Below, piece by piece: positions 12,274-59,800 of a stretch of DNA of 64,000 nucleotides. Location of the stretch: assembly GCA_943736015.1 (NCBI GenBank), contig OX031060.1, positions 18,987,231 through 19,051,230 of the forward strand, read 5' to 3'. Position 1 is the first letter of the stretch; the number at the start of each line of letters is the position of its first letter. The translations under genes and the position numbers were made by a program. Source of the stretch: Tridacna crocea (lineage: Eukaryota; Mollusca; Bivalvia; Cardiida; Cardiidae). The notes beneath the pieces are model-generated. The model did not search any database, had not been told where the DNA came from, and was given only the letters and a program-made list of their open reading frames with translations.

Positions 12274-12498
12274 TTAACCCATTACCACACAATCCCTATA
12301 CTTTTGATAACCCTGAGAAAGAAGCCTGTAGAAAACATTGTGGGCAAAGGAGAAAATGCTGGTAACCAGCATTTTCTCCTTTGCCCACAATGTTTTCTAC
12401 TCTTCACAAAACAAATTTCAAATTTTCAGACACTTTTATTATGTCATCTGCAAATGCTTTCAATTTGGACAAGCCTAAGATATTGCCGTTTGGTAACG
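12274..12498. mobile_element. family A MITE, full length
   Basis: TTAACCCATTACCACACAAT to TTTGGTAACGAG, with a perfect central palindrome (GGGCAAAGG variant matched on both arms, i.e. a compensated change). Confidence 0.85.
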
Positions 12499-15860: not shown

Positions 15861-15900
15861 TCAAAGAGTATTCGGTTTTGCCAGCGATGTCTGACGGACA

Positions 15901-16200
15901 AGCCGATATAGCCCAGTAGATAGAGCGTGGGACTAGTGAACACAGTGTTTCAGGTCACTACAGGTTGTTGGTTCGAATCCCTGGCTGCCCAACTAAAATT
16001 ACTAATGGTCTTTCGGATGAGACATTAAACCGAGGTCCCGTGTGACGGTGCTATACACCGAGCACGTTAAAGAACCAGGCGAAGCTCTCAGTAGCTTCGA
16101 CCTGTATCCTTGCACTATCCCCCGTAACAACTAACCGTCTTCTGGGGGCGTCGTTCAGATGGGCAACCGGTAGCGACGATGAATAAACGGAAATAACAAA
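15901..16200 (+). repeat. tRNA-derived SINE
   Basis: tRNA-like head with box A (TATAGCCCAGTAGATAG) and box B (GGTTCGAATCC), then a body shared with 21518-21838 (GATGAGACATTAAACCGAGG, GGCGAAGCTCTCAGTAG). Confidence 0.75.
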
Positions 16201-16235
16201 CCGACCGACGATGTCCTAAAGCCTAAGAGCCACTT

Positions 16236-16567: not shown

Positions 16568-16796
16568 TTAAATCAGTACCAAACGACAACATTTTAGGCT
16601 TGTCCAAATCGAAAGCATTTGCAGACAACAAAATAAAAGTGACTGAAAATTTGAAATTTGTTTCGTGAAGGGTAGAAAACATAGTGGGAAAAGGATAAAA
16701 TGCTGGTAACCAGCATTTTCTCCTTTTCCCACAATGTTTTCCAAAGGCTTCTTTCTCAGGGTCGTCAAAAGTAGGGATTGTGTGGTAATGGTTTAA
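16568..16796. mobile_element. family A MITE, full length
   Basis: TTAA at both ends, with palindrome (one arm AAGGATAAAATG). Adjacent to the mariner relic. Confidence 0.8.
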
Positions 16797-17368
16797 ATTT
16801 TTCTCTACAAGACTCGCAACTTATCAACCACCCCTTCCTCAGAGCGGTCTTGGTCGTCCATACAGAGCAGTACTCCACAAGAAAAAAGTGGTTACCTGTA
16901 TTTCCTTCTACATTTCTCATTATCAATCAGTTTCCACAATGACCGTTATCCGTTCCTACTGGGAGAATAAAAAGATTTAGTTTTATCAATTGACATATAG
17001 GCCTACAAGCAATATACATGTACATGTATCAGCGCAAAAATTTCTATATCAAATTCAGAACTAACTTCACAGAAATATGAAAGAAAGAAGATTATGGCTA
17101 TTGAGAGTGCAAATGACACATCTCGCACTGATTTCATTGTGGGGCCGCATATCTTTATTCGCTTTTGAGCGTTCTATGAAGGCAGCCATATTGTTTACTC
17201 GGCTTCCAGCATTATCTCCCGCTAGATGGCATTCTATAAATACTCATCTATCTGATATGGACATCCTGGGTACAGAACCGAACCACTTTCCTACGCGACA
17301 GCCGTTACTTTGAATTTCAAACTAAAATTTTAAGTAATTTTACTCAATAAAACCCTACCTCGTGCTGC

Positions 17369-18273
17369 TCACTCAGCTATGATCATCAGTTTAGACAGGG
17401 ATACTAGATAACAATTTGTAATGGCATCTACAATATAAAATTCAAATGGTCCTTTGAACAGTAGATTTGCGTAATATCTCACTGTAAAATTGTCCAAAAT
17501 ACTTTCTGTCAGTTGCAGCCTGTCAATCCCTGTGTGGTTTGCAATAGACACTTGTCTTGAACACATCTCCATTTCTTTAACAAGTTCGTAGAAACTGTTA
17601 CTGGGGATGGTCAGTCCACCACGGTTGACTTTATCCAGCCAGAGAGAATATTTATTCAGAGAGTCCTCTCTAGTACCACTGGCAATACTTTTTTCCATTG
17701 CCTCTAGGAGTGCCTTTTGCTTTGGGTGTGAGGATCCTCGTTCTGCCTTTTTCTTGATAGCACTTACTATGTATCCACTTATGTAATACAAAACACTTAG
17801 TTCGGTCTCGGTCATTGAAATGTCATGTGCCTCCTTGGTTGTTTCAAGTAGCTTGGATAAATTTACAATTAAATGTTCCATGAGTTCATGTAGCAGTACA
17901 CCTACAAACACTCTGTTTCCTTGCGTCAATTTTTGAAGGTGTAAGCAAAGTTCCTTTTTTACAGTAATGTTATAAAACTCAGTGTATAATGCTTCATTCA
18001 TACTTGAAGTCTTTTCACCTGCCTTTTTGAAAGCTATAGAAAAGTGTTGATAGAGATGAGCACATACTTTATCAAAAAGGTCCTTTTCAGAGAGTACTTT
18101 TTCAGCGACTTCGCCTATTTTTTTCCTTTTAGCAGAAAATGCTCTTTCTTTTGCTGTCAGTGACATTGAAGTCATGGTCGCTTCAAGGGCTGTACTAAAA
18201 AACTCTGTAAAGTCTGTTTCATGGGCAGCGTAAGGGTTTTTCTGTTTGTAAGTGCCCTTGATGTAGTTTGCCA
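17369..18273 (-). CDS. exon B: about 300-residue domain of unknown function
   Basis: This is the longest open frame with protein-like composition in the window. There is no ATG at its 5' end: the apparent start is a GTG formed by the splice junction. Charged amphipathic stretches (TAKERAFSAKRKKIGEVAEKV) and the C-terminal FEFYIVDAITNCYLVSLSKL suggest a helical domain. Its last codons are retained in the deleted derivative at about 55.1 kb. Confidence 0.65.
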
Positions 18274-20270
18274 CTGAAAAAATGTGTACATATTTATATT
18301 TACATCAATTTGTTTAGCTGCCTTAACCCTTTCCTGAACGACAAATTTTAGACTCTTCCAAGCTGAAAGGATTTGCAGACGACAATTTCAATTTTGATGA
18401 AAATGGCAGAAAGTTCACAAAATGCAAAGAAAAAACTGTGGGAAAAGAAGCAGTTGCACATTACGAACAATTTCTCCTTTTCCAACAGTATTTTCAAAAT
18501 ACTTGTATTGCAGACACGTAAAAACAAGGGCTTGTTTGGGAAAGGGTTAACACACTAGGTATAATGTGGATCTTTGCCTATACCACAAATTCCCAACTTT
18601 TAACAATCCTGAGAAAGAATGCTTTTTTGAAAACATTGTTGGAAAAGGAACAATGCTGGTAACTGGCATTTTCTCCAATTCCAAAATTTGTTGTCTGGTA
18701 ATGGGTTAATTACATTTGACAATGGCAAATGCTTTCAACTGTACAGGTCCAAATATGTTACCATACAGCAAAATTTTTTACTCTTCAAATTCCAAAACAT
18801 TCACAGAAAACAGATGTGGTACCAATTTTTGAGGTTGTCTGAGATAGAGTAGACAACAATGTGGGGAAAAAGAAGAAAAAGTCGGAATTTATGGCTTATG
18901 GAAGATGTACCCTGTGAACGACCTCCGGGTACATAAACACTAATTGATTTGTAATTGATTTAGTTGGTCAAAATACTGAGTAATCTCCATTTATTAGTAT
19001 ATTTTCTGGTATATTGTATTTATTGTTTTTACTTTCCCACATTTTTTGTATTGTACAAACATGTCAGTTACAGAGAGTAAGAAATGTTAAATATAGATTA
19101 TTAACCCATTACCACACGATCCCTACTTTTGACGCCCCTGAGAAAGAAGCCTTTTGAAAACACTGTGGGAAAAGGAGAAAATGCTGGTAACCAGCATTTT
19201 CTCCTTTTCCCACAGTGTTTTCTACCCTTCCCAGAACAAATTTCAATTTTTCAGTTACCTTTATTTTGTCGTCTGCAAATGCTTTCAATTTGGACCAGTC
19301 TAAAATTTTCTCGTGTGGTAAAGAGTTAAAGAAAAAACAAGTTTGTTTTCATTGTTGTGACCGACTCCCTTTTCTGTTCACTATCTTACCAGATTGAATA
19401 ACCATGCTGCTTTCCCCATTTCACAACCTTTTTCAGAGCAAATGACTTTTGGCAACTTTTGAAAAATTAAAGACTCTTCCAAATTGAAAGAGTTTGCAGT
19501 CGACAATTTTGCGATTCATCAAAATAGCGGACAGTTCTCCAAAAAGGTAGAAAACACTGGAAAGAGCAATTACTCATTATGATCAATTTCTCCTTTTCCC
19601 ACAATGTTTTCTAAAGGCTTGAAATTGCAGGTGCATAAAAACAAGGGATTGTTTAACAAAGGATTAAAAGGAAAGTGGGAAAAGAAAAAAAAATGGGAAC
19701 TACCTTTTGCCCATTTTCAAGCAACCACTTAACAGAAGTTTGCTGGTTCGATCCCTGGCTCGGCCAATATTCTTTCCGAGGATTGATGATAGTCAATGTG
19801 ACAGGATTCATTCCTCCCTAACCACTGTCCGTTGTTTCAACAAGGGTTATGTGGGAAAGCACCCAGTTGCTTTGAAAGAATATACTACAGAGTACTGGTT
19901 AAAAGAACTTAAGGAAAGCATGGATAGGTGCACTGGCCCCTGTGATATAACTGAAATACTGTTGAAAACGACACATAAAACCATACAATCAATGAATATT
20001 TATCACATTTTAAAGTAAGGTACCTTTAATGCCATTAATGCTGTGTTTAGTGCGTAAATGCCCACGCAATCCAGAAACTGTTGAATAGCCTTTTGCACAT
20101 TCACCACACTTGTACCTTTTCATCTCCGCACTCTGAGCAGGCCTCCCACATTTTTTCACATCAACACTGTCATCATCAGATAATTCTATTTCGCTATTTG
20201 TATATTCTCCAAGTAATTCATCTAAATCAAGCGCACTGAAATCAACAAAGTCATCCTTGCTGTAGGCCAT
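17369..20270 (-). CDS. two-exon C2H2 zinc-finger protein of unknown family inside a transposon-like element
   Basis: Exon A (20270-20024, minus strand) starts at ATG GCC and ends AAAG before GTACCT. Exon B (18273-17369) follows the acceptor ATTTTTTCAG and ends at TGA. The one leftover G plus TG restores a GTG (Val) codon, so the joined product is about 383 residues. Residues 1-45 are acidic (DDFVDFSALDLDELLGEY, then ELSDDDSVD). Residues 53-76 are one classic C2H2 finger, C55-x2-C58-x12-H71-x4-H76. The remaining roughly 300 residues are mostly helical-looking with a motif YYISGYIVSAIKKK and match no family I can name. The gene sits entirely inside a 3.8-kb unit with 10-bp flanking repeats. It may therefore be the transposase, a truncated or accessory element protein, or a captured gene. 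No DDE triad is evident. The intron carries four MITEs and a SINE fragment yet both exons are intact. Confidence 0.65.
18323..18550. mobile_element. family A MITE in the zinc-finger gene intron
   Basis: TTAACCCTTTCCTGAACGAC to GGGAAAGGGTTAA; diverged hairpin core. Confidence 0.75.
18576..18709. mobile_element. family A MITE, internally deleted, in the same intron
   Basis: AACAATCCTGAGAAAGAATG, short hairpin, then GTCTGGTAATGGGTTAA; the region between hairpin and right end is missing. Confidence 0.65.
19101..19329. mobile_element. family A MITE, full length, in the same intron
   Basis: TTAACCCATTACCACACGAT to GTGGTAAAGAGTTAA with perfect palindrome, so a young copy. Confidence 0.85.
19467..19667. 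mobile_element. family A MITE, diverged, in the same intron
   Basis: TTAA ends, CTTCCAAATTGAAAGAGTTT block and degenerate hairpin. Confidence 0.65.
19735..20005 (+). repeat. SINE-like element, in zinc-finger gene intron
   Basis: GCTGGTTCGATCCCTGGCTC box-B region, GTGACAGGATTCATTCCTCC body, ATAGGTGCACTGGCCCCTGT tail; inserted 20 bp from the exon A donor. Confidence 0.65.
20024..20270 (-). CDS. exon A: acidic N-terminus and C2H2 zinc finger
   Basis: This exon codes for 82 residues plus one base. A good acceptor (GTGATCTTCAG) lies about 11 nt upstream of the ATG on the minus strand, so the exon probably starts at about 20281 with a short 5' UTR. Matching this, a strong donor (CAGCTG then GTAAGT, minus strand, exon end at 20631) marks a likely untranslated first exon. 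The ORF is open further upstream, but that part is hydrophobic, AT-rich and looks like intron. Confidence 0.6.
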
Positions 20271-21018
20271 AATACATTTACTGAAGATCACGATGTATTT
20301 TCGGTTTACATAATTACTAAAAAAAAGAAAGATCTGTACATTAAGAAAGCTAATATATGAACAAACATCATAACGAAACATAGTACTTGCTGAAATTTAC
20401 ATCTAGATATTGATTAAATTGCGTCCTGTTAGAAATTCTGACAAATACACAAGTTGACATGACACCACTGCACTGCAGAGATCATGACAAGTACACATCG
20501 TCTTTGGGCTAGATTGACATGTTGACGTTTTTATCCTCGACGCTAGAGCTGTTGATGCTCGAAAATTATCATTTAACGAATAATACTTTGAGGAAACTTT
20601 ATTCGAAATAAGTAAAAAAAAAAGACTTACCAGCTGTAACGTATAATGAGCGACGATTGTTATGAACGGAAGTACTTAATAAGACAGGAAACGGCAAGAA
20701 ATTATACTGTCTGAAAGGAAGATAACAAATCGCAAGGAACAACAGCGGCTTAGCAGACGCCGTACAGGTAAGTCAGTGAAAAATCGATAATCGCTCTGAT
20801 TCCAGTTGCGTTGCCTATCCCTGTCTATATAGGATCCCTGGTTTAGAGAAATCTAGAACTAAAGCAGGTCTCATTTCACCTCAAACGTATTGATAAAAGC
20901 TATTTTCTACTTTGCTACTTTATAGATCGTGATATTACAGTCAGCCCGCTTTCGGGGCTAGTGATGCGTCATATAAGACAGGTTGAATCTTCGAAGAATA
21001 TGACATGCGCAGTCAACG

Positions 21019-21260
21019 CGGCTTCCAGTCATTTCGTAAAAAGATAATTTCGTACCTAGGCCAGTTCGTACATCTTTGATCATTTCCTACCCACCTACTT
21101 GTGTTTTTGGTCATTTTATACCCACTTTGATCATTTCGTATCAACTTTTGTCATTTCATACCCTGTTTTTTAAAATCAATTTTGTAATTTACAACCTAGT
21201 TTTAATACTATTTTTTGTGTTGTTTGCTGTGTGACAATTAACTGCTTCAGTTGTGCTTAG
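21019..21260 (+). repeat. right flank of the zinc-finger element: ATTTCGTACC-type repeat
   Basis: Repeated words TCATTTCGTA, TCATTTTATACCC and TCATTTCATACCC recur at about 30-bp spacing. This is a diverged copy of the family at 7.6-7.8 kb, interrupted at its left end by the transposon insertion. Confidence 0.65.
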
Positions 21261-21517
21261 CTCCAAATGAACTTATGTTCAATTTCGCCCTAGGAAAGGC
21301 TTTTATAGCGTTTTACCATTATTGCCTCTTTCTTTTTTAAGGTTTAGTTGGCTTTAAAGTTTGTTAAGGGCTTCCTAGTTCGTTGTTCTTCTTTCCCCAC
21401 TTTGTTTCCAAAAGCATACACCAGAGAGTTGTGAAAATATGCCATTTGTCGGCTAAACAATTGAGTGAAGGTGCTTAATATAAATTCGGGGGTGTCATCG
21501 AAAACAATGGAATTACC

Positions 21518-21838
21518 AGCTGATATAGCTCAGTAGGTAGAGCTTAGGACTCGTGAACATAATGTTTCGGGTCACTACAGGTTGTGGGTTCAAATCCCCG
21601 GCTGGCTAACTAAAATTTCTAATAGTCTTTCCGATGAGATACATGTATTAAACCGAGGTCCCGTGTGATGGTGCTGTACGCCGAGCACGTTTGAGAACCA
21701 GGCGAAGCTCTCAGTAGTTTCGACCTGTATCCTTGCACTATCGCCCGTAACAACTAATCGTCTTCTGGGGGCTTCGCTCAGATGGGCAACCGGTAGGGAC
21801 GATAAATAAACGGGATTAACCAACCAAAAAACGATGGA
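21518..21838 (+). repeat. tRNA-derived SINE
   Basis: Box A TATAGCTCAGTAGGTAG and box B GGTTCAAATCC; body as at 15901-16200, ending ACGATAAATAAACGGGATTA. Confidence 0.8.
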
Positions 21839-21847
21839 ATGTTTGCC

Positions 21848-22071
21848 GAGTTTTGTAGCTCAGTCCATCACTCACAAGGTTTGAAACCTAGGGGTACCTG
21901 GTTTGATTCTCGGCCGCTCGGTCACATCCTTTTCGAGGACTGAAGATAGTCGTAGCATTTACATACCTCTCACCCCTGAATATTGCTTTGAGCATGTAAT
22001 GCGGGAAAGCAGCCAGTGGCCTGTGGAGAATATTGAGCAACCATGTCTGTGTGGGAAAGCAGCTACTGTTC
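21848..22071 (+). repeat. second tRNA-derived SINE, containing the duplication breakpoint
   Basis: TTTTGTAGCTCAGTCCATCA (box A) and GGTTTGATTCTCGGCC (box B). The left end of the segmental duplication (21879) falls within its tRNA-like head, so the unit 2 copy (38707-38900) is headless. Confidence 0.7.
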
Positions 22072-22280
22072 CAATGACTTTTACGACCCAGAAGAAGTAG
22101 CCTTGTGAAAACATTGTGGGAAAAGGAGAAAATGCAGGTAACCAGCATTTTCTCCTTTTCCCACAACGTTTTCTACTCTTCTAAATTCAAGTTTGACTTT
22201 TTGATAACCTGTTTATTTTGTCGTCTGCAAATGCTTCCAATATGGACAAGTCTAAAATTGTTGTGTCTGGTAAAGTTTAA
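22072..22280. mobile_element. family A MITE, left end missing (unit 1)
   Basis: Begins directly after the SINE; ends CTGGTAAAGTTTAA. The duplicate is at 38903-39108 in unit 2, where the right hairpin arm has AAGTATTTTCTCC. Confidence 0.7.
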
Positions 22281-27244: not shown

Positions 27245-27640
27245 TTCTTAGACCGCTTTCATAGGTTTCAACGCTTGGACGTATTCTCTTCAGGGAAAAA
27301 AAAGAGCCGATAGCATTTTTCAGTGACGACAAAATAAAAGTGACTGAAAATTTGAAATTTGTTTTGTGAAGGGAAGAAAATATTGTGGGAAAAGGAGAAA
27401 ATGCTGGTTACCAGCATTTTCTCCTTTTCCCACAATGTTTTCCAAAGGCTTCTTGTCTCAGGTCGTCAAAATTAGGGATTGTGTGGTAATGGGTTAAAGA
27501 AAGGAGAAAAGTCGCGCATTATGCTTCATTCTAGGTAGGAAATTTAGTTCAACCGTTACAGTGCCTTTCACAACTGTCAGTGTAGATCATGATTAGACTA
27601 TAGAAATCTTGCAGTCATATTTATGAGGCGTCAGGACGAA
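27245..27640 (+). repeat. older internal duplicate, right copy
   Basis: This is the paralogue of 23885-24148. It contains a 5'-truncated family A MITE at 27323-27497 that the left copy lacks. Confidence 0.6.
27323..27497. mobile_element. family A MITE, 5'-truncated (unit 1)
   Basis: Starts inside the element at GACGACAAAATAAAAGTGAC, directly fused to the GCATTTTTCAGT sequence; perfect palindrome. The duplicate is at 41110-41282. Confidence 0.75.
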
Positions 27641-35634: not shown

Positions 35635-35709
35635 ATCGAAAAGTTTCGGCTCAGGTCAGCCTGCGCGGACTGCGCAGGCTCACCTGGGTTGATACTTTTC
35701 GGAGATGCA
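35635..35709. repeat. CCTGCGCAG hairpin (unit 1, intact)
   Basis: CAGGTCAGCCTGCGCGGACT with its complement. The unit 2 counterpart at 48185-48233 has lost 18 bp (GCGCGGACTGCGCAGGCT), leaving GGTCAGCCTCACCTGGG. Confidence 0.8.
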
Positions 35710-38060: not shown

Positions 38061-38902
38061 GATAGTACTGAAGGCCAGGAAATTGAGGATACAAAACAAC
38101 ACAAGAGGTCAATTTTAATTAATACAAACAGGTAGACGGACAGGGATACAAGCGGATTCCACTAAGCCCCTGGAATTCTTGGTTTTAAAAGGAAATTTTG
38201 AACTGATACTAGAAAGCACCAGCCAGAAACTAATTAAGCCAGAGCTAGGCACGTGCTCACAGTTATGGGGTGTTTGATAATGGCTTAGAATACTTAGAAA
38301 TTTGTCATGCTTGTAAACAATCCCAAGTCAAAATTGAACTATTCAATCGGTGCAATACCAACTTTGGTTACCTAAATTTTCTGAGACATGTGATGTCTTG
38401 TAGTCCTGAATGACGTTATTTTTTACATTTATGACGCAAGAACATTTTTATTTTTATTGATTTCAATGAAAATACATGTAAGATAGGTATCAATGTAAAA
38501 TGTAATGAATAATAAAGAATGGAGTGATACGGCAGTTGGTCATGTTGTCTCTACCTTCCACAAGTCGACGAAATTTCGAACTGGTCATATCTGAAGGAAG
38601 TTGTAGATCAAAATCCAAAGTAGTTCTTCGTGTATATTGAAAAGTAAGATTTTGGGGAAATTGGGAGGAATTGCTTGTTACAAGCAAATTCTCGTTTAGC
38701 CAAAATGTTTGAAACCTAGGGGTACCTGGTTTGATTCTCGGCCGCTCGGTCACATCCTTTTCGAGGACTGAAGATAGTCGTAGCATTTACATACCTCTCA
38801 CCCCTGAATATTGTTTTGAGCATGTAATGCGGGAAAGCAGCCAGTGGCCTGTGGAGAATATTGAGCAACCATGTCTGTGTGGGAAAGCAGCTACTGTTCC
38901 AA

Positions 38903-39108
38903 TGACTTTAACGACCCAGAAGAAGTAGCCTTGTGAAAACATTGTGGGAAAAGGAGAAAATGCTGGTAACAAGTATTTTCTCCTTTTCCCATAACGTTTT
39001 CTACTCTTCTAAATTCAAGTTTGACTTTTTGATAACCTGTTTATTTTGTCGTCTGCAAATGATTCCAATTTGGACAAGTCTAAAATTGTTGTGTCTGGTA
39101 AAGTTTAA
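38903..39108. mobile_element. family A MITE, duplicate in unit 2
   Basis: Copy of 22072-22280 carried by the segmental duplication. Confidence 0.7.
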
Positions 39109-48635: not shown

Positions 48636-48867
48636 TTCAACCCTTTACCACAAAATCCCAATTTTAACGACACCAAGAAAGAAGAGTTTTGAAATATTGG
48701 GAGAAAAAGGAGAAAATGTTGGTCAAACCAGCATTTTCTCCCTTTTCCTTAAATGTAGTCGTGCCTTTAAAAATGTGAATTTCATTTCTATCGTCACATT
48801 TACTTTCTTGTTTTGCTAAACATGCTTTTCAGTCTGCATGGACAAGTCAATTTTGTCGTTTAGTTAA
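48636..48867. mobile_element. family A MITE, diverged (unit 2)
   Basis: Duplicate of 36109-36337; its right TTAA has received another family A copy. Confidence 0.7.
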
Positions 48868-49092
48868 CTCTTTACCACACGAGAAAATTTTAGACTTGTC
48901 CAAATTGAAAGCATTTGCAGACGACAATATAAAGGTGACTGAAAAATTAAAATTTGTTCTGGGAAGGGTAGAAAATACTGTGGGAAAAGGAGAAAATGCT
49001 GGTTACCAGCATTTTCTCCTTTTCCCACAGGGTTTTCAAAAGGCTTCTTTCTCAGGGGCGTCAAAAGTAGGGATTGTGTGGTAATGATTTAA
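48864..49092. mobile_element. family A MITE, unit 2 only (post-duplication insertion)
   Basis: TTAACTCTTTACCACACGAG to GGTAATGATTTAA, with near-perfect palindrome. Unit 1 has an uninterrupted single TTAA at 36334-36337. Confidence 0.9.
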
Positions 49093-49889
49093 AGGTTTCG
49101 ATAATTCTTTAATATCTGACAAAGTTTAAGCTGCGATAAAACTTCCCTGCCAAGCCACAGATGTTCTCGCCTGGACGAGCGGTTTTTTTTTCGGTATGTC
49201 ACAACAATGTCACAAATTCCATATCTCAAACAAAGAACTGGGTCTGTATGCACGGCGCATTCCCAAGAACCGTCTTAGTCTTATCCTCCAGAATTTTCTA
49301 ATCTTGAAAGAAACACAACTTCTGATTTGTTAAACCATTTGGTTTAGCCAATCAGAAGTTGTGTAACTTTTAGATTATGAAAGTCCCAAAGTGTAAGACA
49401 AAAAAAAAACTCTTAAAAATAGTTGGTGAATACGGATCTAATAGATTCTTCAAAATTTCTATGTCCCAAAATGATCGCTTCTCGTGACCTTTAGTTCTTT
49501 TTGCGGACAATGTAGATAAAGACCAGACTGTAAAAAGTTGCAGTATACTCTTTGATCTACGATCCACTACCCGGAAGCTAAAGTTAGACCCAAACCATCT
49601 TCAACACCACCGAATCTCTCTATTTTATAACCAGTGTCATAGTTCGGTGATTTCATAAAAGTTAAATGAAACAAATTTATGTAAGATAAAGGGTGTCAAC
49701 CGTATCGACCGTAAATATTTTGATTAAAACACGCCACGATTTGTCATAAATCTAACCATAAATGGACAATTTCACGGACAGTTAAGTTACTATGTTACAG
49801 TACATCTCTTCAGTTTTTTTGTACATGAAGATCTACCTTTGTTTAGCCTGGTATCTTTTGTTATACTAGGATTCTTTATCCTGTAACAC

Positions 49890-54924: not shown

Positions 54925-55277
54925 CGTTGTCTGCGCATGTGATATTCTTCGAAGATTTGACCTGTCTTATATGACGCATCACTAGCCCCGAAAGCGGGCA
55001 GACTGTAATAGTACGCTCTATAAAGTAGCAATGTTGAAAATAGCTTTTAAAAATACATTTGAGGAGAAATGAGACCTGCTTTAGCTCCAGATTTCTCTAA
55101 ACTGCTGACTATAGCTGAGTGAATTGCACGAGGTAGCATTTTTTTTAAGTAAACGTTTACTTTAGTTTGAAATTCAAAATAACGGTTGTCGCGTAGGAAA
55201 GTGGTTCGGTTCTGTACCCAGGATGCCCAAATTAGATAGATGAGTATTTATATAATGCCATCTAGCAGGAGATAATG
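54925..55277 (+). mobile_element. internally deleted non-autonomous derivative of the zinc-finger element
   Basis: Positions 54925-55102 match the reverse complement of 20841-21018, and 55096-55277 match the reverse complement of 17210-17395. At the join sits TCTAAAC, present at both parental breakpoints. The predicted size after deletion (357 bp) agrees with the 353 bp seen. The last codons of the parental ORF (CTATAGCTGAGTGA versus CATAGCTGAGTGA) are retained. Flanks GACAAACAG (54916-54924) and GGCAAACAG (55278-55286) look like its own target duplication with one mismatch. Confidence 0.8.
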
Positions 55278-56835: not shown

Positions 56836-59800
56836 GTAAGCTATTGGTGTTACTGAACTCATTTTTTTTAATTAAGGCGTGGAAAGGGGTGTAATGCAGA
56901 GAAATGACCCTCCCCTACAAAATGACCAATGGGTCATTTCTCTACGTAGGGAAATGACCCATGGAACATTTTGTAGGGGAGGGGGGCATTTTTCTGCATT
57001 ATAGGGGCACACTTGCCAAAACCGACAATTTATCGTATAGATAGACTAATGAATGCACGGGTGGGTGAGTGAATGGATGTGTGGATGGATGGAGAAAAAC
57101 TGGCCTGTGAGAGCGGACGGACAGGTGGATTGATGAATTGATAAGAATTAAATGGAATTAAATTAGATTGATTCGGTCAATGGAGTTAGTGAGATTGATA
57201 TGCATGAATACGTGACATACATGGATTGAAACTGGAAGCAATGTATGAGGGTAAATGATATTGGTAGTATCAAAATGATGGAAAGAACTGAAGTATGTTG
57301 ATGGTATTTGAAGGATGGTAGTTTGGTAATATTAATATTTGAAGGATACAGTGAAGTAACTATGAAAGCTAATACTTGACGGATGGAGGGAGTTAATTTG
57401 ACTCATAGTACGAGTACTTGAAGAATGAAAGGGGTTATATTACATTTAGTATTTGAGGGATGCATGGGAGTAAATGTCATAGATAGTATTTGAAGGATGG
57501 AGGGAGTTAATGTGACAGGCAGCTATGGAAGGATGGAAGGGATTAATATTACGTGTAGTACATTGTATTTGAAAGATGCATGAAAGTAAATGTAACAGGT
57601 AGTATTTGAAGTATGAAAGAGAGTTAATGTGACAGGTAGCTAGGGAAGGATGGAAGGGGTTAATATTACAGGTAATACATTGTATTTGAAACATGCACGA
57701 AAGTATATTGACAATAAGTATTTTTTTGAAAGATGGGGTGGTAGAGAGTTAATTTGACACATAGCAATGGAAGGATGAAAGGGGGGGGGGGTAATACTAG
57801 TATAGTATTTGAGGGGTGCATAACAGTAAATGTGACACGTACTGTTTGAAGGATGAAGGGAGTTAATGTGACAGGTAGCAACGGAAGGATGGAAGGGGTT
57901 AATATTACATGTAGTATTTGAAAGATGCATGAAAGAAAATGTCATAGCTAGTATTCAGGGATGGAGGGAGTTATTGTGACTGGTAGCATTTAAAGGATGG
58001 AGGAGAGTAAATGTTACAGGTAGTATTTGGAGGATGGAAGAGTTAATGTGGCGGGAAGCATTCGATGGATGGAGGAGAGTAAATGTGACAGGTAGTTTTC
58101 GGAGAATGCGTGTAAGTTTATTGTTACAGGTAGTATTCAAAGGATGAAGGGAGTTATTGTGAAAAGTGGTATTGGAAGGATGGAAGGAGGTTCATGTGAC
58201 AGGACTGCTTGAAGGATTGAGGCATCCTCGGATCCTTCAAATACTACCAGTCACATTAACTCCCTCCATCCTTCAAAAACTACCTGACACTTTTTCTCTC
58301 CTCAATCCCATCCTCGGATACCCGGGGTCTCCCTATTTGCTACGCTACATCGACCCCTGGGACAATTAATTGAATTTCCCTCGCTTTACCGCTGGCCGAA
58401 TGCTGGCTTTTCATTGGTTCCATCATCATTTTGTGATGGGCGAGTGGACTGTACGCTATGACGTTTCGTATCGATTTTCGGCGGCTGATTCAAAGTTTTA
58501 TTAGTCAATTATCCCATGGGTCGATGTAGCGTAGCAAATGGGGAGACCCCGGGGTATCCGAGGATGGGATTGAGGAGAGAAAAAGTGTCAGGTAGTTTTT
58601 GAAGGATGAAGGGAGTTAATGTGCCTGGTAGTATTTGAAGGATGAAGGTGGTTCATAATACATGTAGTATTTGAAGGATTGAAGAGGGTTAATGTTACAT
58701 GTAGTAATTGAAGGATGCATGAAAGTTCATGTAACTTGTAGTATTTGAAGGATAGAAGCGAGTTAATGTGACGGACAGCATTTGAAGGATGGAAGGGGAT
58801 TAATATTACATGTAGTCTTTGAAAGATGCATGGGATTAAATTTGACAATTATCATTTTAAGGATGGAGGTAGTAAATGTGTCAGATATTTTTTGAAGACT
58901 GGAGGGACTTAATCTGACAGGTGGTATTTAAAGGATGGGAGGGGGTTAATATTACATGTAGTGTTTGAAGGATGGAAGGGGGTTAATATTACATGTAGTA
59001 TTTGAAGGAAGCATGGGAGTAAATGTGATATGTAGTATTTGAAGTATGGGAGGGAGTTAACGTGACAGTATTTGAAGGATGGAAGGAACTTAATGTGATA
59101 GTAGTATATGTAGGATGGAGGGGTTAATGTGACAGGCAGAATTCGTCCGATAGAAGGTAGTTAATGTGAGAGGTGGTATTTGAAATGATGGAAGGGATTA
59201 AAAGTGAAAAGTAGTTTATGAAGGATGGAGAGAGTTATTGTGATGGTAGTATTTGAAGGATGAAGGGGGTAAATATTTTATGTAGTGTTTGAAGGATGCA
59301 TGGGAGTAAATGTGACAAGTAGTACATGTATTTGAAGAATAGAAGATACTTAAAGTGACAGGTAGTATTTGAAGGACGGAAGAGAATTAATGTTACAGCC
59401 AGTCTTTGAAGGATGTATCGGAGTTAATGTGACAGGTAATATTCGAAGGATGGGGGGAGTTCATGTGATAGATGGTAGTTGAAGCATGGAAGGGGGTTAC
59501 TATTATATGTAGCATTTGAAAGATGCATAGGAGTAAATGTGACATGTTGAAGGATTGATGGGATTAGTGTGATTCAAAGGATGGAAGGGGGTTAATTTGA
59601 CATTTTGTATCTGAAGGATGGAGGGAGTAAATATGACAGGTAGTATTTGAAGGATGGAAGTATTAAAGAATGGAGAATGAGTTAATGTGATAGGTGGTAT
59701 TAAAAGGAAGAAGGGAGTTAGGAAAGGATGGATACCAGGCTTTGGCTTTGAGGTTTCCTGCTGTAGGATAATTCCCGGGTCCGTATTCACCAACCATTCT

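Follow-up and report, generated by a model that had tools for sequence, protein, structure and literature searches.

The 64,000-nucleotide stretch of the Tridacna crocea genome analysed here (contig OX031060.1, positions 18,987,231 to 19,051,230; hereafter the window) contains what an earlier note had described, from the letters alone, as a 3.8-kb transposon-like unit that carries a spliced zinc-finger gene between identical 10-bp repeats. Comparison across the 1.05-Gb genome, of which the window is part, indicates that this unit is two nested elements, a gene-bearing transposon lying inside an older, unrelated miniature inverted-repeat transposable element (MITE). We consider it quite probable that the inner element is an internally deleted P-type transposon, and that its gene, here called gene 1, encodes the C-terminal domain (CTD) subunit of a split transposase whose DDE part is encoded in larger relatives by a separate gene, gene 2. 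What the earlier note observed is partly confirmed and its interpretation is partly supported.

The outer element belongs to a gene-less MITE family. The window is rich in repeats: when 1-kb blocks spaced roughly like the 3.8-kb repeat pair are compared, at least one shared 10-mer turns up in 207 of 236 pairs, so that the CGGCTTCCAG pair alone is no proof of a target-site duplication; a chance repeat was considered for that reason and was ruled out by the other MITE copies in the genome. A search with the left MITE end gave 40 scored matches at 90% identity or more, window included, and because these were scored among 1,717 first-look candidates the MITE counts are lower bounds. Thirty loci were fetched, the window and 29 others, and 27 of the latter could be measured end to end, the right end being absent at the other two (L058 and L060). 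The 27 copies are 343-361 bp long, start with CATTATCTCCCGC... and finish with ...CAACG, apart from single-base differences in a few of them, and the window MITE is 88-94% identical to them once its insert is removed. Their best duplication length is 10 bp in 21 and 9 bp in 6; the duplication is exact at 17 loci, has one mismatch at 7 and two at 2, and is not recognisable at the remaining locus (L065), where 6 of 10 letters agree. Homology does not run past the duplication, and the flanks beyond it are mutually unrelated (26-28% identity). Since other copies carry 9-10-bp duplications, the CGGCTTCCAG repeats are a real target duplication, as had been supposed. A short related copy lies in the window at 54925-55277, but this is a copy of the MITE and lacks the gene; the match to it starts at 17210 and ends at 21018, with BLAST running 1 base further into the right repeat. 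In being gene-less and having 9-10-bp duplications the outer element resembles MuDR/MULE-type MITEs; of the MuDR features only the duplication length would fit, no autonomous partner or transposase was found, none having been searched for, and the family is not assigned to that group.

The gene itself had been assigned to the unit with the 10-bp duplication, but it sits in a second element with a 7-bp duplication of its own, GTTTAGA. This word was found 19 times among the 27 other MITE copies, always without an insert, and the rest vary in or near it. When a query reached 32 bases beyond 20840, three C18 loci (83-84% identity) aligned exactly as far as 20840 and a fourth, short match on C8 went 3 bases farther; five further matches are MITE pieces with starts at 20830-20841. 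The C18 ends and the uninterrupted GTTTAGA words together imply that 17396-20840 was inserted into the MITE with a 7-bp duplication. The inserted element, designated family A, has terminal inverted repeats (CAGGGATACTAGATAACA / CAGGGATCCTATATAGACA), and the idea that the MITE was a deletion product of one larger element was abandoned once termini like those of a related family, family C, appeared at 20840.

Gene 1 was re-derived from the sequence as two minus-strand exons (20270-20024 and 18273-17369) that join in frame over GT/AG sites to encode 383 residues. In favour of the splice, a phase-1 donor immediately follows the finger in each of three families (AAAG/GTACC in A, AGAG/GTATC in B and AAAA/GTATG in C), and TTTCAG acceptors are seen in A and C, all of these sites having been picked by eye. 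The C2H2 finger that had been proposed is present at residues 53-76, but it is weak, scoring 18.9 bits (E 0.002) against the Pfam cut-off of 25.2. Other Pfam hits are weaker and also below threshold, for example Imm26 (E 0.03), the PDB sequence search returned zinc fingers and one non-finger match (E 0.71), and the NCBIfam search gave nothing useful. A DDE transposase was rejected as the identity of gene 1, there being no sign of one in the Pfam or PDB sequence searches, and to this extent the picture of a spliced gene that is carried by a transposon and codes for something other than a DDE transposase holds. The distal terminal repeat encodes CYLVSL of the protein, and the reading frame is open through it; the final 8 residues, SKLMIIAE, and the stop are encoded by the duplication and the MITE together. 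In family B, gene 1 extends about 40 residues beyond this point, an end that the window copy lacks. There is no transposase match anywhere in the window and the inner element encodes gene 1 only, so it is not autonomous; by gene-1 homology and termini it would be a non-autonomous P-type transposon. The window copy is probably an internally deleted derivative that lost gene 2 entirely along with the end of gene 1, the deletion being read off the alignment because no full-length family-A copy was found.

The P assignment draws on relatives elsewhere in the genome. A search with the gene 1 protein gave 23 matches, which merge by place into 13 loci, window included; the family-B protein as query added one very weak C2 match (E 0.27), which is not counted. 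Four gene-bearing loci with differing flanks belong to family C, which starts CAGGGATCATATATAACAGGGAT and whose copies are 97-99.7% alike, and three belong to family B, which starts CAGAGACATACAATACACAGAGA. At six of the 13 loci a gene 2 match lies within 10 kb, convergent with gene 1 in every case. The best gene 2 frame, in family C (L032:5486-8020, minus strand), has 844 residues and matches the Pfam families TNP-like_RNaseH_N (3.2e-25), GBD (the GTP-binding domain; 1.9e-20) and RNaseH_C (6.5e-8), as well as chain A of the Drosophila P transposase structure PDB 6p5a (6.5e-17). Its QDEIK, SDGASPN and NQDAIEQ blocks align to P motifs and hold D429, D531 and E782, which we take to be the catalytic D, D and E. 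The frame is open over 844 residues at C1:76807489 and over 842 at both C1:59485353 and C11, and is broken at the fourth family-C locus (C2:30545775-30548304). A family-B transposase fragment likewise matches GBD (4.9e-20) and RNaseH_C (2e-6). No THAP match was found in the 844-residue frame, taken without upstream exons, at E values up to 10, and no viral-contig relatives of gene 1 or gene 2 were confirmed. With an RNase H DDE transposase that carries a GTP-binding insertion, families B and C belong to the P superfamily. An undescribed superfamily is unlikely, given a P-superfamily transposase beside six of 13 gene 1 loci and the resemblance of the gene 1 protein to the P CTD, and the same two facts make a captured host regulator unlikely as well.

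The resemblance lies in the C-terminal half of the gene 1 protein. Among 177,635 sequences, the top PDB match of a profile built from gene 1 of families A, B and C (profile A1) was 6p5a_B, the C-terminal chain of P transposase (E 0.018). Two co-linear blocks are aligned, YlsGYiisalk with YIAGYVIKKLR and wfdkvnrGGLtiPsesf with YVDEVSHGGLIKPSEKF. In a local control the displayed chain reached 18.7 bits; among the shuffles, 20,000 in number and 16,859 of them given a score, the maximum was 9.7, and none was as good. The canonical architecture, with the CTD in the same chain, was not found, as the gene 2 frames stop soon after RNaseH_C: family C ends in ...PLPKKPRL, 38 residues past the RNaseH_C match, and family B in ...LPRRQST, shortly behind its final RNase H segment. 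Family D (C10:35520552 and C4:8575976), a distant P-type group with 26% identity to C, ends in ...TKKLRV just past where its match to C stops, and genome searches with gene 1 and with the family-B protein gave no gene 1 match near its transposases. Six-frame scans of six loci confined CTD-like coding to the strand of gene 1, with the exception of one hit at E 0.56.

What might have led to this arrangement, and how would it work? The sequence shows that the MITE was inserted first, with its 10-bp duplication, and that the CAGGGAT transposon then landed inside it with a 7-bp duplication. Larger relatives encode gene 2, a DDE transposase whose frame stops shortly behind RNaseH_C, and convergent with it gene 1, a C2H2 finger joined to a CTD-like half. 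Most likely the gene 1 protein is a second, trans-acting transposase subunit. Its finger would bind the element ends or keep the protein attached to DNA. Its CTD, a helical domain, would fit in between the GTP-binding domain and the RNase H body and touch the DNA of both transposon and target, in the manner of the fused CTD of Drosophila. A CTD detached in a separate zinc-finger gene suggests that a P transposase can be built from two encoded parts. A copy with gene 1 only could act in trans as a source of the subunit for other copies; alternatively it could compete with it and repress, like the Drosophila KP and 66-kDa proteins; since the window copy is truncated, it may be a competitor. The bolder proposal, that a heteromeric P transposase operates here, with catalysis and end-joining divided between a DDE subunit and a trans-acting zinc-finger/CTD subunit, and that the window gene serves or restrains the amplified family-C copies, in which gene 1 is broken, strikes us as conceivable but, on balance, doubtful. 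If it holds, the second subunit could have few sources left whose frame is open, the window gene and the C15 copy being among them.

An alternative is that gene 1 rides along with P-type elements as a passenger or regulates them, perhaps as a repressor or as a host-interaction protein, and has no more than a short motif in common with the CTD, and that gene 2, acting alone, is a complete transposase that has no CTD. Several points weigh against the split transposase, and some of them favour this alternative. The CTD match is one alignment and depends on the profile: profile A2, to which fragments were added, did not recover it, nor did the family-B gene 1 protein on its own, and the AlphaFold models are all-helical but too poor (mean pLDDT, the predicted local distance difference test, 36 and 41) to serve as fold support. 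Two stop codons in gene 1 are common to all four family-C copies checked (L028, L029, L030 and L032); family C has thus spread with a broken gene 1, which implies that gene 1 is unneeded in cis and perhaps at all. No transposase match lies near seven of the 13 gene 1 loci, and the signs of selection in family-B gene 1 are mixed, with 5 synonymous and 3 amino-acid changes in exon 2 (counted from L035 5880 on, since the C18 frame is broken in the part upstream) and 0 synonymous and 7 amino-acid changes in exon 1. The 7-bp duplication comes from a single family-A insertion, a DNA query gave no second genomic copy of the family-A distal end, and in families B and C the terminus was read on the gene 1 side only. 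Nevertheless, the two CTD blocks are co-linear and in the right order, no shuffle equalled them, and gene 2 stops about where a CTD would start in families B, C and D, so we regard a mere passenger as unlikely and prefer the split transposase.

Host takeover is another possibility, the window copy then working for the host as a zinc-finger regulator. Exon 2 DNA matches only itself in the genome, the window frame is open whereas stops interrupt the matched stretch at eight of the 12 other gene 1 loci, the transposase is lost, and the repeats of the window cover 58% of the intron and none of the exons. However, the end of the gene is truncated and runs into the MITE, the intron repeats may have moved with the element, and two other families carry gene 1 beside a transposase, and we judge a host takeover a little less likely still than a passenger. 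That the whole 3.8 kb is a single transposon with a 10-bp duplication and a native zinc-finger protein, the short copy being its deletion derivative, would suit the exact match of the ends and could treat GTTTAGA as deletion microhomology, but is extremely improbable. The two GTTTAGA words are the duplication that encloses CAGGGAT...CCCTG, the inner end breaks off at 20840 in independent copies as well, none of the 27 MITE copies measured falls outside 343-361 bp, and the elements that hold relatives of the gene end in CAGGGAT or CAGAGA.

The split transposase has likenesses to several known systems. As in the P superfamily (Drosophila P, Galileo and Pdre2/THAP9), there are a split RNase H domain with a GTP-binding insertion in gene 2, terminal inverted repeats, a 7-bp duplication and internally deleted copies; the difference is that the CTD-like domain here lies in a separate, convergent two-exon gene, where it is fused to a C2H2 finger. 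Passages in the literature give duplications of mostly 7 bp for Galileo and 8 bp for P and Pdre2 (PMC4168063, PMC7776569, PMC10983969). Parts of one of these sources also describe internally deleted Drosophila P copies, some of which encode partial proteins, and an all-helical P CTD that is joined by a flexible linker to the RNase H domain and rests on another subunit (PMC7776569). The convergent gene pair recalls RAG1L/RAG2L, which differs in its transposase family and its 5-bp duplications. RAG2L is not known to be a detached piece of RAG1L, unlike gene 1 with respect to gene 2 if the transposase is split. Sections of a published account describe RAG-like transposons as having two convergent genes that encode two proteins, terminal inverted repeats and 5-bp target-site duplications (PMC7204232). 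With regard to a role as repressor, the window copy differs from the KP and 66-kDa proteins in retaining the CTD-like part and its own finger. The KP protein retains the N-terminal part of the transposase. As far as excerpts of one account go, the 66-kDa protein of Drosophila P also retains the N-terminal part, and the likeness to the window copy is that these repressors are partial transposase proteins, the products of elements that carry internal deletions or are spliced only in part (PMC7776569). Among the papers listed by the literature searches none describes a split P transposase, Repbase entries being outside those searches and prior deposition there possible. If the transposase is indeed split, the natural division would let the CTD be added or withheld, a direct test of its role, and the element would be a further convergent two-gene cut-and-paste element beside RAG1L/RAG2L. 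The case also illustrates that, in nested elements, flanking repeats can be credited to the wrong one.

Table 1. Positions in the window of the two nested elements, of gene 1 and of a recurrent repeat, with the genomic loci of gene 1 and gene 2
Feature	Position	Strand	Basis or remark
Inner element, family A, 3,445 bp, carries gene 1	17396..20840	-	C18 matches end at 20840; termini
7-bp target-site duplication GTTTAGA of inner element, left	17389..17395	+	Uninterrupted GTTTAGA in other MITE copies
7-bp target-site duplication GTTTAGA of inner element, right	20841..20847	+	Same GTTTAGA comparison
Distal terminal repeat CAGGGATACTAGATAACA	17396..17413	+	Also encodes gene 1 residues 370-375
Proximal terminal repeat CAGGGATCCTATATAGACAGGGAT, CAGGGAT doubled	20817..20840	-	Compare family C, CAGGGATCATATATAACAGGGAT
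Gene 1 exon 1, coding part, with the C2H2 finger at residues 53-76 and an acidic N-terminus	20024..20270	-	
Gene 1 intron, GT/AG, phase 1, 1,750 bp	18274..20023	-	58% covered by repeats recurring in the window
Gene 1 exon 2	17369..18273	-	P-CTD-like blocks YISGYIV 246-252, NRGGLTIPS 299-307
10-bp target-site duplication CGGCTTCCAG of outer MITE, left	17200..17209	+	Exact repeat
10-bp target-site duplication CGGCTTCCAG of outer MITE, right	21019..21028	+	Exact repeat
Outer MITE (about 351 bp), left part (CATTATCTCCCGC...)	17210..17395	+	86% to 55277-55096
Outer MITE, right part (...CAACG)	20848..21018	+	20841-21019 91% to 55102-54924
Outer MITE, uninterrupted (empty-site) copy	54925..55277	-	Self-comparison
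Gene 1 loci	C5 (window); C4 x3; C11 x2; C1 x2; C2 x2 (one exon 1 only); C17; C18; C15		
Paired gene 1/gene 2 loci	C1:76806124, C1:59480595, C11:32240455, C2:30552255, C18:37097283, C15:30826069		
GTGGGAAAAGGAGAAAATGCTGG repeat copies	16577-16797, 19101-19320, 12274-12495, 48864-49093, others		

The termini of the inner element recur widely. With up to one mismatch allowed, the genome has 1,102 occurrences of CAGGGATNNTANATAACA and 59 of the reversed control pattern, which implies that these termini mark a large family; set against 35 transposase matches and the 23 gene 1 matches, the number suggests that most copies must be non-autonomous. Among the places listed, C1:27588350, C2:55606010, C3:37541014 and C4:34008136 have pairs of CAGGGAT repeats back to back over 36-40 bp, and these are perhaps transposons shrunk to their ends. 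Within the end of the outer MITE, the stretch at 17218-17231 (CCCGCTAGATGGCA) resembles what we take to be the CTCF core motif, and CTCF-like sites could be scattered by the many MITE copies.

Other repeats abound in the window. A palindromic, MITE-like repeat of about 220 bp (GTGGGAAAAGGAGAAAATGCTGG...) has at least 20 copies and is also present inside the gene 1 intron. The segments 21515-21825 and 15898-16202 are 87% identical repeat copies that look by eye like transfer RNA (tRNA), which raises the question of a short interspersed nuclear element; ARAGORN called no tRNA. A 356-bp segment occurs at both 21873-22228 and 38701-39056, 16.8 kb apart, with 97.8% identity, and parallel repeat hits at 27308 and 41093 and at 35706 and 48230 have offsets of about 12.5-13.8 kb, a pattern that probably reflects local duplication. 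Tandem arrays with a 37-bp period and a GC skew near 0.48 occupy 57420-59658.

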